Source: Elusimicrobiota bacterium (GTDB taxonomy: Bacteria; Elusimicrobiota; Elusimicrobia; UBA1565; UBA9628). From it: DNA of 64,000 nucleotides. The translations under genes were made by a program, and so were the position numbers. The notes beneath the pieces are model-generated. The model saw only the letters and a list, made by a program, of their open reading frames with translations. It was not told the DNA's origin and made no database searches. The stretch covers positions 62,001 through 126,000 of the forward strand of contig JAPLKL010000007.1 in the NCBI GenBank assembly GCA_026388095.1, read 5' to 3'. Of this stretch, positions 29,616 through 39,644 are shown one piece after another (position 1 is the stretch's first letter; every line of letters begins with the position of its first letter).

Positions 29616-29693
29616 GGTGGGTGTAGCTCAGCTGGTTAGAGCGCTTGGCTGTGAACCAAGAGGCCGGGGGTTCAAGTCCCCTCACTCACCCCA
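29616..29693 (+). tRNA. tRNA-His (GTG anticodon)
   Basis: The cloverleaf folds completely. The acceptor stem is GTGGGTG with CACTCAC (one G-T pair). T8 and A9 are present. The D stem is GCTC/GAGC, the anticodon stem CTTGG/CCAAG carries loop CTGTGAA, and the T stem is GGGGG/CCCCT with loop TTCAAGT. The extra G at position -1 (29616) pairs with C73, the hallmark of histidine tRNA, and CCA is encoded. The stop codon of the convergent serine recombinase gene lies inside the tRNA 3' half, so this gene marks the left end of the accessory region. Confidence 0.97.
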
Positions 29694-31256
29694 TTTTGCA
29701 TTTCGAGCATAGAGAACCTCGTAATCCCCTTGAGCCCTCAGGGTTTTGCGAGGTTCTAACCGTTTATGGAGGGCCTGGACCTCGGGGGCGAACTCCTGGA
29801 AGAGGGCCAGCGGCTTTTGCATTTGAATCTCAAGCGTTCTGTCGGTCAGGACGAGGTTCAAACCGAGGCAGGAGAGGATTTCCCGCTTGACGGCCAGGTC
29901 GCCCGTCTCAAAGCGTCTACGGGCTGTTTCCGCAAAGGATAAAAGCCCCTCGGCTTGATTGATCCACGTCTCGGCCCGGTGGTTGGCGTCTGAGAGGATT
30001 TCCTCGGACCGCTTCTTTTCCTCGGCCAGTTTTTCCCGCCGCGCTCGAAAGTCCTCCGGCGAGATTTCGGCATCGAGGCGCATTTCAAAGAGGGCTTCAA
30101 TCTTTCTCTGGCAGGCATCGGCCCGCGAACGGTGATTCTTCAGAATGTCGTCCCTGTCGTTGCGTTCCTGGCCCTGCTCCTCTTTAAGGTATTTGATGGC
30201 CCACTGGTGGAACTCCGGCGGGATGGTGATCTTGTCCAGAGTCTCCTTGATTTGAAGTTCCAATTCGCTGTCTCGGATGGGCTTTTGGGAGCAGGTCGGG
30301 ACGATCCGTTTCGAGCAGCGGTAGTAGGTGTAATGATGGGTGTTGCCGTTTTTCTGATGCTTGGTTTTTTCTTCCGCCGTGATGGACGCTCCGCATTCTC
30401 CGCAGCGGATCAGGCGGGTGAAAGCGAAAATGTGCCGGGTCAGAGCCTCCGGCCTTCTTCCGTCCAGAAGCCCCTGCACTATGTCGAACTGGGTCTTTGA
30501 GATCATGGGTTCATGCTTGCCCGGATATAGGGTCCCGTTCCAAGAAAATTGTCCGTAGTAAAACGGATTGCGGAAAAGGGTGTAGAACTTGCTTCGCGTC
30601 AGCGGCTTGCCTTTGGGCGTTCTTAAACCAAAATCGTCGGCGCGGGAGTAGAGCGATTCGGCGGAGCATCGCTGTTCTATCAAGGTCAGCCAGAGGCGCT
30701 TGACCAACTCGAACCTTTCGGGGTCATTGTGGATCGGGAGCAGGTCCGGCAGGTTGTGCTTGTTGGACAGGTAGCCGATGGGCGGCTTGTGCGGGACCCA
30801 GCCCTGCTCGATCTTGGCCCGTTGCCCCCTCTTCGTGTTGACGCTCAGGTCCAGGATGAATTGATTCGCCATGCCGAACTCTAAATTCATCATCAGCACG
30901 TTGTCGGTGGGGTAGTAGCTCCTCTGGAAAGTCTGGATGTGTTTTATGAGCGATTGTTGGAGCATCCAGCTAATGGTCCCACCGTCCACGGGGTTCCGGG
31001 CCAGGCGGTCGAGTTTCCAACAGATGATCCCTTGGGCCTTGTCCACATGAATGGCCTCAATCATCTTGTTGAAGATCGGACGCCCTGGCGCTTTGGCGGA
31101 CTTTTCCTCGGTCAAGACGGCCTCGATGGTGAGATTCGCTTGCGTGGCCAGACGCTTCAACTCATCGATCTGCGAGGAAATAGAGGCGATCTGCCGATCT
31201 TCGTTCTCGGAAGATTTACGCGCATAGAGGAAATATTTGATGCCGGAGGGTTTCAT
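29682..31256 (-). CDS. large serine recombinase / integrase
   Basis: The 524-residue product has an N-terminal resolvase domain with Y-A-R-K-S (catalytic S15). It includes I-C-W-K-L-D-R-L-A-R-N-P, followed by the 'recombinase' domain (about 165-290) with Y-G-Q-F-S-W-N-G. A zinc ribbon has R-C-G-E-C-G plus a later C-S-K-R...C-S-Q, and a long coiled coil spans about 370-450. This is the architecture of phage-type serine integrases, which join attP and attB without high homology. The ATG shares one base with the stop of the MerR-like gene (TAATG). The C-terminal codons run into the tRNA-His 3' end, so the integration junction formed part of the reading frame. Confidence 0.93.
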   Translation of the reverse strand: MKPSGIKYFLYARKSSENEDRQIASISSQIDELKRLATQANLTIEAVLTEEKSAKAPGRPIFNKMIEAIHVDKAQGIICWKLDRLARNPVDGGTISWMLQQSLIKHIQTFQRSYYPTDNVLMMNLEFGMANQFILDLSVNTKRGQRAKIEQGWVPHKPPIGYLSNKHNLPDLLPIHNDPERFELVKRLWLTLIEQRCSAESLYSRADDFGLRTPKGKPLTRSKFYTLFRNPFYYGQFSWNGTLYPGKHEPMISKTQFDIVQGLLDGRRPEALTRHIFAFTRLIRCGECGASITAEEKTKHQKNGNTHHYTYYRCSKRIVPTCSQKPIRDSELELQIKETLDKITIPPEFHQWAIKYLKEEQGQERNDRDDILKNHRSRADACQRKIEALFEMRLDAEISPEDFRARREKLAEEKKRSEEILSDANHRAETWINQAEGLLSFAETARRRFETGDLAVKREILSCLGLNLVLTDRTLEIQMQKPLALFQEFAPEVQALHKRLEPRKTLRAQGDYEVLYARNAKWGE

Positions 31257-31429
31257 TACTTTCGGATCTTCTTGAGAATCTTTTCCAGCTCCGCTTGTTT
31301 GTACATCCGGTAGTTGTTCATGGGATGCCGGTAGGGAGAGAGCTTCCCTTGCTTGTCCCAATTCCGCAAGGTTTGAGGCGTCACGCTCATGAACCGTGCG
31401 GCTTCAAGAATCTTGAGGTAGCCTTTCAT
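31256..31429 (-). CDS. small MerR-like helix-turn-helix protein
   Basis: The 57-residue product is a single MerR/excisionase-type winged helix with L-E-A-A-R-F-M-S-V-T-P-Q-T-L-R-N-W-D-K-Q-G-K-L. It is coupled to the serine recombinase gene by TAATG. In IS607-type elements a MerR domain is fused to the serine recombinase; here it is separate. It may act as a recombination directionality factor or as the operon repressor, which is inferred from position. AAGG lies seven bases before ATG 31429. A consensus promoter sits directly upstream. Confidence 0.8.
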   Translation of the reverse strand: MKGYLKILEAARFMSVTPQTLRNWDKQGKLSPYRHPMNNYRMYKQAELEKILKKIRK

Positions 31430-31897: not shown

Positions 31898-33274
31898 TCA
31901 TTCGACCGACTCCGACTTCCAGAACACTCCGGGCCAGACCCTTACGCCGTCCGCACGGCCCTCCTTTGCCCCCAGGACTTCGCGTAGGCGCTTGTTAAAA
32001 GCCTGCTGGCTGGCCGGATGGGGTATCCCCGCCTTTTGGCCCCACTCCTTGTATTTCTGATAGACCTCGGCCTTGCCTACGGCCTCCCCCGATTTGGTCT
32101 CAAGGCGCTCGGATATAAACTCGAAGGCGTGGTCACATTGCCGCCGGTAGCTCTGTCCGGCTTCTTGGATGCTGGCGCAGGTGCTAAAGTCCTGTTGCTC
32201 CTCCAAGCGTCGAAGACCGACCAGAGCACGGTTTAGAAGGGCACTCCGGGCCTCTGGGGTGGTTAGGAGTTCGAGCAAGTCCTTTTTGGCCTTGGAGCCC
32301 TGGAAGTGGTTGGGGAATGGGATGATGACCCAGCGCCGGAAGTAGGCCGGGCTCAGGTCCCGCGACTCCGGCAGTTCGTTGGCGCTAAAAAGCAGCCGGG
32401 CCGTTGGGACTAGGTTGAAGGGCTGGCCGAATTTCCGTTCGGCCTTGATGATGTCACCGCCGACGATGGCCTTGAACACGTCGGACTGCTCCAGGCTGGA
32501 AGACGGGAGGTCCGCATAAACGTTGACAAGCTTGCCTTGAAGCTCTGCTGCTACAAAGCGGTTTCCTACGAGGTCCTGGAGCGATACATGGGACACACTT
32601 TCCTCACCTAAGAAGACCGCCAGCATCGAAAGAAAGGTGCTCTTGCCGTTGGCCCCGTCACCCAAGAGCGTAAACGCTTTCTGGAATTTCGTTGTAGGAC
32701 GCAGCAGGTAGCCAACCAGTTCCTCGGCCAGCGGCAAGGCATCCGACGGGAAGACCTCAGCCAGGAAGCGGTCCAGAGTCTCCGAGTGTGCGCCTGGGAC
32801 ATAGGCCGCATTGATTTGGAACGTTGAGCGGTATTCCGGCGAGTGCGGCTTGAGTTCGCCTGTGCGCCAATCCAGCATCCCGTTCTGGACGTTCAGCAGG
32901 TCCATGGCGGCCGGGTTCAGGTCATGCGCCGCAACCTTCGAGCTTTCCTTGACCAGCGCGGAAGTGGATTCGAGCCGGTCCGGCTTCGAGGCGGCCCCTA
33001 GTAGTTCGTGGGCGAGCCTGCGAGCTTTGTCTGCTCCATTGTGCCGGAAGACGCCGTCCTCATAGAGATGGAGCCGGACACCGACCCCGGCTTCGTCTAT
33101 CGGCGAGCTAAGGAAATGATGCTCGCGGGCTATCTCCCGCGCCAGGACAGCGGGGAGGAACGTATTGCCCTCGAACCAGGTCGCGGCAGGCCGGCATCGT
33201 TTCATGCCCTGAGCAACGCCCCGGACTTCCGCGGTGACACGCCAGGGTTTCACCTTATAACTGCCGACCGCCAT
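31898..33274 (-). CDS. P4-family primase/helicase (D5-like SF3 ATPase)
   Basis: The 458-residue product has the D5_N domain (about 80-190) and a superfamily 3 helicase core. Walker A is G-D-G-A-N-G-K-S-T (205-213), a Walker B-like N-V-Y-A-D-L-P follows, sensor 1 is L-L-F-S-A-N-E-L-P and an arginine finger is in Y-F-R-R-W. A C-terminal winged-helix segment follows. It would unwind DNA to start replication of the element. The N-terminal catalytic primase domain of P4 alpha-type proteins is absent, so this is a helicase-only form. Starts at M1 or M24 are possible. It overlaps the upstream HTH gene by 20 bases. Confidence 0.9.
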   Translation of the reverse strand: MAVGSYKVKPWRVTAEVRGVAQGMKRCRPAATWFEGNTFLPAVLAREIAREHHFLSSPIDEAGVGVRLHLYEDGVFRHNGADKARRLAHELLGAASKPDRLESTSALVKESSKVAAHDLNPAAMDLLNVQNGMLDWRTGELKPHSPEYRSTFQINAAYVPGAHSETLDRFLAEVFPSDALPLAEELVGYLLRPTTKFQKAFTLLGDGANGKSTFLSMLAVFLGEESVSHVSLQDLVGNRFVAAELQGKLVNVYADLPSSSLEQSDVFKAIVGGDIIKAERKFGQPFNLVPTARLLFSANELPESRDLSPAYFRRWVIIPFPNHFQGSKAKKDLLELLTTPEARSALLNRALVGLRRLEEQQDFSTCASIQEAGQSYRRQCDHAFEFISERLETKSGEAVGKAEVYQKYKEWGQKAGIPHPASQQAFNKRLREVLGAKEGRADGVRVWPGVFWKSESVE

Positions 33275-33500
33275 TACGGTTCCTGGTTGACTTTTGAGAT
33301 GCGGAAATTTGTTGGATTCGGCGGACGGTCACACCAAATTCGCGAGCCAATTTTTCCGCAGGCACCTTCTTCCTAAGCAATTGGGACAGTCGTCGACGGT
33401 CTAGAGGCTCCTTCTTGCCGATATAGATTGTTTTCCCCTGAGGATATCGGGCTCGGATTCTGTCCCGACATTTTATGCACAGCTCTTCATGATTTGACAC
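33255..33500 (-). CDS. small Mor-like helix-turn-helix protein with a CxxC
   Basis: From GTG 33500 the product is 81 residues. A Cys pair C-I-K-C near residue 8 is followed by R-I-R-A-R-Y-P-Q-G-K-T-I-Y-I-G-K-K. A helix-turn-helix comes next with V-P-A-E-K-L-A-R-E-F-G-V-T-V-R-R-I-Q-Q-I. The layout resembles Mu Mor/C-type activators, though it is shorter. GGAGG is four bases before the GTG and sets the start. The leader upstream forms a strong RNA structure ending in eight U residues. The end of the gene overlaps the primase start, so it may control replication genes. Confidence 0.65.
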   Translation of the reverse strand: MSNHEELCIKCRDRIRARYPQGKTIYIGKKEPLDRRRLSQLLRKKVPAEKLAREFGVTVRRIQQISASQKSTRNRNGGRQL

Positions 33501-33515
33501 ATGGCCTCCTATACC

Positions 33516-33616
33516 AAAAAAAAGCCCGTCACTGGAAAGACCATGCTTGGAAGATACTTCCATTGGACGAGAACCATTCCGGCTCTCAAGCACGATCTGT
33601 CCAGCGACGGGCTTTT
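33516..33616 (-). ncRNA. structured RNA, leader of the Mor-like gene or independent sRNA
   Basis: On the minus strand a 17-bp closing stem (33600-33616 with 33520-33536) leads into a second stem of about ten pairs. A junction follows with a 6-bp hairpin (AGAGCC/GGTTCT, loop GGAAT) and a perfect 6-bp hairpin (TGGAAG/CTTCCA, loop TAT). All four non-Watson-Crick positions in the stems are G-U on this strand but A-C on the other, which indicates that the minus strand is the folded product. The closing stem is followed by eight U residues and then the GGAGG of the downstream gene. It may be an attenuator, a riboregulator or a P4-like immunity RNA. I know of no matching class. Confidence 0.65.
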
Positions 33617-34171
33617 CGTGGTTTCTTCTATCCCTCCAGACGTGTTGGAGAGGGATTACGTATGACCACTTTCTTAAGTCCGTTACCTACCTGCTCTGCC
33701 ATAGATGACGCCGAGATTTCTCTTGGAACCCAGTGTTACTACTGGATATCCGAAATCTCCATCCCAGAGTTGGTGTCCCATTTTTTTGTTTGGAGGGACT
33801 GAACCAATATCAACGCCTCAAAGAACATTACGGCTAACTAAATCGTATGAAGAATTCGTGGTTGAATCAAGTGAAATACTCTAAAGGGAATTTCCAGCAA
33901 TCGGGATGGCCCGGATCGTCAGCGCTCGCGGTCGCCTGTGCGTCTGAGTTATTTTACAACTTGCGGCAGCCCTATTCCCGTCGTGCTCATAGAACAGCTT
34001 TGGTTGAGACCCCAGGTCCCCATTATGAGACCAAACGCCAGAACGTTACATTGTGGCGGAAGCCGCCTAGAATGCGTCGCTAGGGTGCGCCCTGGCCGCG
34101 TCTGGCGCGGCTGGCCCGGAGTCCAAGATTGCGGCCGCAGCCGAGCGCCGGCGCGGTTCGCCGGTCCGCAC
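33617..34171. other. 555-base stretch without a supported gene
   Basis: Short open frames on the plus strand have no ribosome binding site, no recognisable motif and poor composition, so I annotate none. The stretch is less GC-rich than the chromosome. It separates the structured RNA from the 3' end of the coiled-coil cargo gene and may hold the promoter for the RNA. Confidence 0.6.
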
Positions 34172-35458
34172 TCACCGCCCCACGCGCTCTTGGCTCTGGC
34201 GCCGCATCTTCCGAGACTGGCCATGCAGCAACGAAGCGGACGGTCCATACAGTTCCTTTGCATCTGCCTGTTGCTCTTGACGCAATGCCTCAAGCTGAGT
34301 CGGCGACATCCGCCGTCGCCACGATTCGGCCTCGGCCATGTAGTGCTGGATTTGTGCATACTGCGAACTTTCTGGATATTTTCTTCGGAAGGCTTCACCG
34401 TCCCGCATGACCGAATCAATATCATAATTATCGTGTGCCAAATAAACTAGTTGAGACTCCAGTTCTCCCATCTCATCCTTAGTAATGGAACTCTTTTTGT
34501 TAATTGCCTTGTGGAGAAACTCACACGCCGCGCTTAAGCGGCCCTCTTCCTTGAAGGCATCGAGGGCATCGGTTATGTCCTCAAATGTAGCGGTCCCATT
34601 GTCCAACCTCTTGTTCGCGTAGGCGACCGTTTCTCTCCGCTCCGCATCAGCAAGGACAGACTTATGTTCCATAATCCGCTGATGGATTTCATCGTATTTC
34701 TTCAGGCGCTCGTTGAGGGCGCTAAGAGAACCTTCTGCCATAGCCAACTTGCGTTGGAACTCTTCAGGGGATTTGCCGGCTAAGGCGACGGATTTAACAT
34801 CGTCGATCCGGTTTCTGAGGGCAAGGTGCATCTCATGTAGGTCCTTATCCTTGCTGAATACCGTCTTTCTCTTCTCCAGTTCGACAAATTGGGTTTCGAG
34901 TCGATTGAGACGCTTGGTCAGAGTGTCGATGCTTTGAGTATTCTTCGATAGATTTTTCTCATGCTTCTCAGAGACATCCTGTAGGGTCTTCACATCCGTC
35001 TCGACCTTTTCCACACGTTGCGTCAGATTTTCCAGTACACTGTCCTTGAATTTCGCGTTCTCCTGGACGAATTTTTTTACGCGCTCTTTCTCGATGCGGA
35101 CTAACACATAGCTGTAATCGTTGCATTTCTCGAAATCGTCCTGCTCCCATCCTGCCAGCAGTGTGCTTTGGGGGAGCAGTCGGCCTACTTCTTTTGCCAC
35201 TTCCCAACGGTCCCGGCCGGGGCCAGCCACCTTCTCCACATCTGTGGAATCCCAGACTTCCAAGTCGCCGGTTACCTGTTTGCCGAGATTCTTGATGGCC
35301 TGAAGACGCGCCTTGTCAGTGTCCGGGTCCTTGGCGACCCCGTAATACCACTCCCGGTCCCGTGGTAGCGAAGTGTAAAACGATGGCGGGGCACATTGCC
35401 CTGCAAAAATGGGCACAGCCCCGATCATGTTGAGGGCGAGAATCATCGTTGAAACCAT
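34172..35458 (-). CDS. secreted coiled-coil protein with an LPP20-like N-terminal domain
   Basis: The 428-residue product starts with a signal peptide (about 1-20, ending near F-A-G). The N-terminal domain (about 30-130) has W-Y-Y-G-V-A-K and A-R-L-Q-A-I-K-N-L-G-K-Q-V, then Y-S-Y-V-L-V-R-I-E-K, a layout like LPP20-type lipoprotein domains. A long coiled coil follows (about 130-270), with a helical tail. There is no lipobox. Function is unknown; an envelope-located structural or sensing role is inferred. GGGAGGT lies four bases before ATG 35458. It shares a repeated upstream sequence with the zinc-ribbon gene, so the two may be co-regulated cargo. Confidence 0.65.
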   Translation of the reverse strand: MVSTMILALNMIGAVPIFAGQCAPPSFYTSLPRDREWYYGVAKDPDTDKARLQAIKNLGKQVTGDLEVWDSTDVEKVAGPGRDRWEVAKEVGRLLPQSTLLAGWEQDDFEKCNDYSYVLVRIEKERVKKFVQENAKFKDSVLENLTQRVEKVETDVKTLQDVSEKHEKNLSKNTQSIDTLTKRLNRLETQFVELEKRKTVFSKDKDLHEMHLALRNRIDDVKSVALAGKSPEEFQRKLAMAEGSLSALNERLKKYDEIHQRIMEHKSVLADAERRETVAYANKRLDNGTATFEDITDALDAFKEEGRLSAACEFLHKAINKKSSITKDEMGELESQLVYLAHDNYDIDSVMRDGEAFRRKYPESSQYAQIQHYMAEAESWRRRMSPTQLEALRQEQQADAKELYGPSASLLHGQSRKMRRQSQERVGR

Positions 35459-35563
35459 AGGACCTCCCATGGGCAGCACCCTGCGTCGGTCACCTTAGAG
35501 TGATATGACGACAGTTTATCCGTGATCTTGAGACTTGTCAATTTCATCAGCCATCTCATCAGA

Positions 35564-35610
35564 CATCCGTTGGAGAGGGTGCCCTGAATGAATCAGCAGC
35601 AACCAACTCC
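35564..35610. repeat. upstream direct repeat, copy A
   Basis: About 45 bases here (beginning CATCCGT and including TGCCCTGAATGAATCAGC) recur with roughly one change in six at 36711-36755. Similarity fades over the next 20 bases. Copy A lies about 105 bases upstream of the coiled-coil gene start. The stretch 35459-35680 holds no gene. Confidence 0.65.
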
Positions 35611-35680
35611 ACCCTAGCGATTAGCCACGCACTATCAGCACCTCGTAGAGCGCGCTTTGGTAGGCCGACCGCCACTCATG

Positions 35681-36710: not shown

Positions 36711-36755
36711 CATCCGTCGGAGGATGCCCTGAAAGAATCAGCGGCACCCAACCCC
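36711..36755. repeat. upstream direct repeat, copy B
   Basis: This is the partner of the 35564-35610 repeat and lies about 30 bases upstream of the zinc-ribbon gene start. The remaining 36756-36999 stretch holds no supported gene. Confidence 0.65.
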
Positions 36756-36999
36756 AGCTATGCGAATAACCAGGACTGAATGCCGCCTTTCCCCGTGCCG
36801 AAGCACGAGTACATCAGCGGCCTCAATCCGGTTTCGCATATGCCCCCTCAGCGTCGAGGTGAGCTTACCGCGCTCTTACGCGCGGCCCCGGTGAAGCCAA
36901 AATCTACTCAACTATCGTTTTTCTCTATTGTCCTCCTGCACGACAGCCCCAAGTCTAGCAAAATCCGGCCTAGCCGAAATAACGATTTTACCAGTATTT

Positions 37000-38369: not shown

Positions 38370-38933
38370 CTATGCTCCGATGATAGCGGCGTCAACCTCC
38401 GACTCCGCAAAACTCAAGTATGCCGCGGTTGAAGAAAGGCTCCGGTGTCCCATGGCCTTTTGCGTCCGGATCAAGTCATGGTCCAGGCGTTCATAGACCC
38501 GCGCCGCGAAAGTTTTTCTCATGCCGTGCGTCCCGATCCTGCCGAACACGCCGGCAGCGCGATAGGCCGCGGTCAAGATGGCCCAGGCTTGCGTCCGGCT
38601 CACGGCGCCGCCCTCCCGGCTAAGGAACAAGGGCGACTCGGCCGCCGCGCCCCTGGCGTCCAGCTCCACGACCCACACCGCCAGCGCGGCGCGGGCCTCA
38701 TCATGCAGCGGGACCGTGCGGCCCTCGATGTGGCCTTTCATGTTGCGGCGTTGGACGCCAACGAATTTGGCGACCTCGCCGCCGTGGACAACATCGGCCA
38801 CCCGCAGGCTCAGCAGTTCCGACACCCGGAACCCTGTACGGACTCCGAGCATGAAGAAGGCGCGATCCCGGACCCCAAGCCTTGAAGCAACCTGGGCTAT
38901 CTCCGAATCGCTTAAAGGCCGCATTCCGCGCAT
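38370..38933 (-). CDS. minimal tyrosine recombinase (catalytic domain only)
   Basis: The 187-residue product is a complete tyrosine recombinase catalytic domain. Arg I is in T-G-F-R-V-S-E-L (R36), Lys in N-M-K-G (K66), the H-G-M-R box has H136 and R139, H163 is in M-G-H-R-S, and the nucleophile is Y172. The N-terminal SAM-like core-binding domain is missing, so it is about half the length of phage integrases. Such short forms act on their own or need a helper. The promoter upstream is near-consensus. Placement at the far end from the tRNA suggests a second mobile module or a resolvase role. Confidence 0.88.
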   Translation of the reverse strand: MRGMRPLSDSEIAQVASRLGVRDRAFFMLGVRTGFRVSELLSLRVADVVHGGEVAKFVGVQRRNMKGHIEGRTVPLHDEARAALAVWVVELDARGAAAESPLFLSREGGAVSRTQAWAILTAAYRAAGVFGRIGTHGMRKTFAARVYERLDHDLIRTQKAMGHRSLSSTAAYLSFAESEVDAAIIGA

Positions 38934-39356: not shown

Positions 39357-39644
39357 CTAACGTCGTTCAATAAGCGACCCCAGCTCTCCGTCGCGCGGCC
39401 GCGTCAGCGAGTTTTTGCTTTCGCGGCCGTGCTTTTTTTGGTTCAAGTCCGGACCGGTGCTCGGTTGACCCTTTGGGGCAGAAAGGTGAACCAATTGCCC
39501 GGAGAGTAACTTCGAGCGGCGTTTGAAGCGGACCTTGGTGGGTTTGAACTCGCGAAGGTGCTCCGCGAGGGAATGAGTCTCCCAGTATTTTGCTTCTTCA
39601 GCAACGGATTCGAATTTCGGAAGCTTCCGGTCTTTGGTTTTCAT
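39357..39644 (-). pseudogene. CopG-type antitoxin fragment with an aberrant C-terminus
   Basis: The first 45 residues (F-E-S-V-A-E-E-A-K-Y-W-E-T-H-S and E-F-K-P-T-K-V-R-F) match the N-terminus of CopG antitoxin proteins that partner BrnT-like toxins. In the family a ribbon-helix-helix follows; here the remaining 50 residues are unrelated, basic and low in structure. The gene was probably cut and joined to foreign sequence. The 11-base tRNA-His match at 39440-39450 lies within this abnormal part. No toxin gene is beside it. Confidence 0.6.
39440..39450 (+). repeat. 11-base match to the tRNA-His T-arm
   Basis: GGTTCAAGTCC here is identical to 29669-29679 in the tRNA-His T-arm and has the same orientation, 9.8 kb away. 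Tyrosine integrases often use T-arm sequence as attachment core. The match is short and could be chance. Confidence 0.35.

Follow-up and report, generated by a model that had tools for sequence, protein, structure and literature searches.

A large structured RNA in a mobile element of an Elusimicrobiota bacterium is best regarded as an intrinsic terminator of unusual size that acts as an attenuator. It stands directly before the element's replication operon. The structure looks like a replication off-switch rather than a new conserved class of RNA, since related elements carry another stop signal in the corresponding position. The attenuator reading also yields a simple testable prediction for the elements of little-studied bacteria.

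Fold and stability of the structure

The structure spans positions 33516-33617 on the minus strand of the window, which is the whole stretch of 64,000 nucleotides (64 kb) analyzed here, and it ends in eight U residues (U8). Its pair of arms covers 30 positions, of which 29 are paired and one is a C.U mismatch, and two hairpins sit on top (Table 1). The initial annotation described a 17-bp closing stem, a second stem, two hairpins, eight U and a ribosome binding site. The fold and the sequence bear this anatomy out. The RNA fold of 33500-33625 on the minus strand has a free energy of -67.2 kcal/mol (z -8.5), and none of 200 shuffled sequences folds as well. When 8520 segments of 110 nt were compared on both strands of the 64 kb, the structure ranked first for G+C-corrected stability (-7.2 sd). 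Its T8 is the longest T run within the window, and the structure is the strongest combination of a hairpin and a T run there. A GC-rich stem with a U-rich tract directly 3' of it is the sequence hallmark of an intrinsic (Rho-independent) terminator, and this is the form seen here.

Table 1. Parts of the structure and of the neighboring operon, in window positions.
Feature	Positions	Strand	Basis or remark
Non-coding stretch, presumed leader or transcript source	33624..34171	minus	upstream of the structure
Closing stem, 5' arm (GAAAAGCCCGTCGCTGGA)	33600..33617	minus	fold prediction; 33617-33600 pairs with 33519-33536 (17 bp and an outer G-U)
Closing stem, 3' arm (TCCAGTGACGGGCTTTTT)	33519..33536	minus	fold prediction
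C.U mismatch	C33599.U33537	minus	between closing stem and inner stem
Inner stem, 5' arm	33588..33598	minus	11 bp with 33538-33548
Inner stem, 3' arm	33538..33548	minus	fold prediction
First junction hairpin	33569..33587	minus	7 bp, loop GGAAU
Second junction hairpin	33549..33561	minus	5 bp, loop UAU
U8 tract	33516..33523	minus	A4 of the 5' arm pairs with the first four U
Shine-Dalgarno AGGAGG	33505..33510	minus	five bases 3' of the U-run
First operon gene, 81-aa helix-turn-helix (HTH) protein	33255..33500	minus	resolvase/Mor-type HTH, weak matches; GTG start at 33500
P4-family primase/helicase C-terminal protein, 458 aa	31898..33274	minus	D5_N, DUF5906, Pox_D5

The minus strand is the favored strand of the fold. 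The RNA fold of 33500-33625 on the plus strand reaches -49.2 kcal/mol (z -6.0). Four positions (33605/33531, 33595/33541, 33593/33543 and 33583/33573) are G-U on the minus strand and A-C on the plus strand, as the initial annotation had pointed out. The selection on a minus-strand RNA that it deduced from them is, however, a weak argument on its own, because all four would fall this way by chance with a probability of 1/16. A further mismatch that it overlooked is C.U on the minus strand and G.A on the plus strand, and is neutral between the two. An open reading frame from a GTG at 33593 shares its frame with the HTH gene and extends across the structure; it lacks a ribosome site and was judged not coding.

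The replication operon and its surroundings

The operon that follows the structure begins with the gene of the HTH protein, whose GTG start codon lies 15 nt past the end of the U-run. The ATG of the P4-family gene falls among the final codons of the HTH gene, giving an overlap of 20 nt. The P4-family gene matches TIGR01613, in its C-terminal part only, at 202 bits against a cut-off of 108.7, which confirms the P4-type replication gene previously noted beside the structure. Its product contains D5_N and helicase parts and no primase domain, and its nearest named relative comes from an uncultured Elusimicrobia bacterium. The name Mor-like, given earlier to the first gene, is too strong: Pfam Mor scores 14.2 bits, below its gathering cut-off of 24.9, and the PHROG late activator match has an E value of 0.001. 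The 81-aa HTH protein is only weakly Mor-like. Homology searches found no convincing relative of its gene, and a low-confidence structure model of the protein (pLDDT 61.5) gave no significant structural match.

The recognizable genes on both sides of the structure, from the recombinase through a tyrosine recombinase at 38370, are all on the minus strand. Beyond the operon lie the gene of a MerR-type small protein and then that of a large serine recombinase (29682-31361), which ends within the 3' end of a tRNA-His gene (29617-29693). Such a pairing of a large serine recombinase gene with the end of a tRNA-His gene is not known to be common. An att site at tRNA-His was considered and dropped, as the sole direct repeat of the tRNA-His 3' end in the window is a chance 11-mer; the element's far boundary was not located. 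On the plus strand, 39393-39439 forms a GC-rich hairpin of -31 kcal/mol within 45 nt, with a T7. This is the window's only other T run of at least six that is preceded by a strong compact hairpin, and it sits inside a predicted minus-strand open reading frame (39357-39644).

Proposed control of the operon by transcription termination

We favor, with moderate confidence, the reading that the structure is an intrinsic terminator serving as an attenuator in the leader of the replication operon of the element. Minus-strand transcription of the leader would meet the structure before the HTH gene and the P4-family helicase gene. Since the gap between the U-run and the start codon is 15 nt, no promoter fits between them, and any operon mRNA must cross the structure. 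From the strength of the stem and the U8, most polymerases should stop there, which would keep the operon mostly off while the element is integrated. Expression would then come from read-through, either by plain leakage or on an antitermination signal, which could be mediated by a protein. The two extra hairpins may be binding sites for an antitermination factor, or may simply stabilize the stem.

The presumed leader contains only weak promoter-like sites, which lie 220-430 nt upstream, and the transcript 5' end that had been expected near 33620 finds no support. Neither arm of the stem pairs with the leader or with the downstream sequence above shuffled controls, and the leader holds no short open reading frame led by a Shine-Dalgarno sequence. 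Control of read-through by RNA only is thus not seen, and attenuation by a leader peptide or an antiterminator was set aside, as the leader scan gave no signal for either. Bacterial operon attenuators likewise have a terminator between the leader and the first gene. The structure differs from them, as neither an antiterminator fold that competes with it nor a leader peptide or a known ligand module was found.

Predicted terminators before primase genes of the same clade

In a small sample, the arrangement of a terminator just before the primase start recurs in the clade of this gene. The P4-family genes of the phylum that are closest to it (approximately 59-63% identity, and one at 86%) group with it in a single clade (FastTree support 1.000). 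Three of the four other testable members carry a GC-rich hairpin and a T7 whose end lies 0-32 nt ahead of the primase start; the primase of G234 runs off the contig edge and is outside these four. In G192, GGCCGCTCCCCCTCGGGGCGGCCTTCTTTTTTT is followed by CAAG-ATG, with a hairpin of -20 kcal and the T7 ending 4 nt before the ATG. G175 has AGGCGCTACCTCCTTCGATGGGGGTAGCGCCTTTTTTT, a hairpin of -28 kcal whose T7 ends 32 nt before the ATG. The GC-rich hairpin of G189 has -30 kcal, and its T7 overlaps the first possible start, 10 nt before an ATG. The fourth member, G120, has a weak hairpin only, with a T7 133 nt upstream.

Such a signal precedes 10 of the 220 genes called in the same DNA. Three of the ten are these primases and one gene is counted twice, which leaves a background of approximately 3%; the HTH gene of the window was too short for this count and was left out. 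A binomial estimate from this background puts the chance of at least three in four at about 1e-4, for a test that was made post hoc, after the pattern had been seen, on four loci. Ten members of other P4-primase groups have no such signal before the primase. A P4-family gene of another, more distant clade (G220:C60, L125) has a hairpin of -38.5 kcal/mol and a T6 directly at the primase start. The clade hairpins are unrelated in sequence to the structure and simpler in fold. Common descent is not shown for them, as they share no sequence. A three-way fold shared with G189 was rejected, since the fold of G189 is a simple hairpin.

The same anatomy would be expected of a plain intrinsic terminator that insulates the operon from the upstream cargo genes, with the operon expressed on constitutive, unregulated read-through. 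These cargo genes are on the same strand as the structure, and the signals of G175 and G189 likewise come after another small gene. However, 550 nt separate the structure from the stop codon of the last cargo gene, and the operon would be silenced by a terminator that sits 15 nt ahead of a start codon and leaves no promoter in the gap. The recurrence in the clade also speaks against mere insulation, which we consider unlikely, although it deserves some weight.

Comparison with P4 and IsrK

P4 is the textbook mobile element silenced by premature transcription termination. A terminator that recurs in the same position in a phylum far from that of P4's host, and in unrelated sequences, would suggest that such control arises repeatedly around P4-type replication genes. 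In P4 lysogeny, the CI RNA, which pairs with seqA and seqC once processed, causes premature termination ahead of the replication genes (PMC4825925). The present element is similar in that a P4-family replication gene stands behind a leader with an early transcription stop, here predicted, in the integrated state. Unlike in P4, a strong intrinsic terminator closes the leader here, at a distance of 15 nt from the first start. The pairing of CI RNA with seqA/seqC also has no equivalent here: complementary sites like seqB or seqA-seqC were not found in the leader by a duplex scan, which covered the stem arms only and did no better than shuffled sequences. Membership in the P4 CI type is therefore not supported.

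The IsrK locus of Gifsy-1 produces a short RNA ending at a terminator and a read-through mRNA (PMC4825925). Both systems have a leader with an intrinsic terminator, and read-through gives the mRNA of the downstream element genes, as predicted here from sequence. They differ in that IsrK is an expressed small RNA with a shown function in trans, whereas the RNA here is a predicted one. By analogy with P4 CI RNA or IsrK, the terminated leader RNA might regulate in trans, with a short RNA ending at the U-run and the read-through product as the operon mRNA. Its position and layout match IsrK (PMC4825925) and its fold is very stable, but the stem arms have no complementary target above chance in the leader or the operon start, and no homologues were found. 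We regard regulation in trans as improbable.

A more far-reaching proposal joins this idea with the clade pattern. Elements of the clade would control replication by termination right before the primase start, and in the present element the terminator would have grown into a large RNA with a three-way junction, able to act in trans as well or to bind a dedicated factor, giving an RNA-based lysogeny switch independent of the CI RNA of P4. We offer this as a long shot.

Search for homologues of the structure

The structure has no second copy in its own genome by DNA search, and blastn found no homologue in 57 relatives. A covariance model built from the single sequence found none in 341 Elusimicrobiota genomes. 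Three marginal matches to this model were examined and are all unrelated; among them, that in G150 lies beside an rnpA-like gene and that in G051 is a short terminator, both chance matches. Plasmid, phage and viral-contig collections contain no DNA match. Rfam gave no match above the gathering score; when the threshold was relaxed, all that appeared were sub-threshold matches, among them noise of the microRNA type.

The initial annotation had suggested a new class and an Infernal-type covariance search as the check. As this search of 341 genomes left a single copy with no homologue, the sequences lend no support to a conserved new class of RNA. No covariation can be shown for a structure that has neither a second copy nor a homologue. 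The broader suggestion of a regulatory RNA of a mobile element fares better in one part, as a minus-strand structure does stand ahead of a P4-family replication operon, in the position where P4 relies on termination to silence its replication genes. A MITE or other repeat was rejected, as the structure is single-copy in the genome and has no copies in relatives. That the structure acts as DNA, either as a folded single-stranded site of replication initiation or recombination or as the relic of a small inverted-repeat insertion, is very improbable: it folds as DNA on both strands (minus -33.9, z -8.7; plus -27.1, z -5.6), adjoins a replication gene and has ends of the form ACCA...TGGT with loosely similar flanks, but it is single-copy, the encoded protein lacks a primase domain, a U8 followed by a Shine-Dalgarno sequence is not expected of such a site, and a clear target-site duplication is absent.

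A second structured RNA family nearby

A second structured element lies at 36732-36902 on the minus strand, 3.2 kb from the structure and ahead of the gene of a zinc-ribbon protein (z -6.4). Its covariance model does not match the structure at 33516-33617; the sequences differ and the two are not homologous. Rfam 15 contains no match to it. The element is approximately 190 nt long and has crossing (pseudoknot) helices, with copies in the loci L045-L056 and L057-L086. Twelve copies were aligned, 11 of them from relatives, and show strong compensatory changes. In the pseudoknotted model, 93.6% of the cells pair, a share in which the model is favored, as the structure was derived from the same sequences. 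Changes on both sides occur in 18 of the 41 pairs. The covariation score of 0.382 falls to 0.166 on shuffling and to at most 0.088 on sliding.

By covariance model, the family occurs in 37 of the 341 Elusimicrobiota genomes and in 27 of 100 genera; the 37 are probably a lower bound, since few candidates were scored per genome. A same-strand open reading frame starts within approximately 130 nt past the element in 17 of 30 loci. These frames are unrelated to each other, one pair excepted. The genes are diverse, and many appear secreted or lipoprotein-like by eye. The second element looks like an undescribed, probably cis-regulatory class of RNA.

A decayed copy of the 3' half of this family, together with the flanking sequence that comes after the full copy, is found at 35583-35646 on the minus strand, upstream of a 435-aa gene (34172-35479). 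In the copies of L071 and L082, a GC-rich stem interrupted by T6-T7 stands at or just past the 3' end (GCCGCC...TTTTTTGGCGGGC in L071). This interrupted stem is possibly a switchable hairpin.
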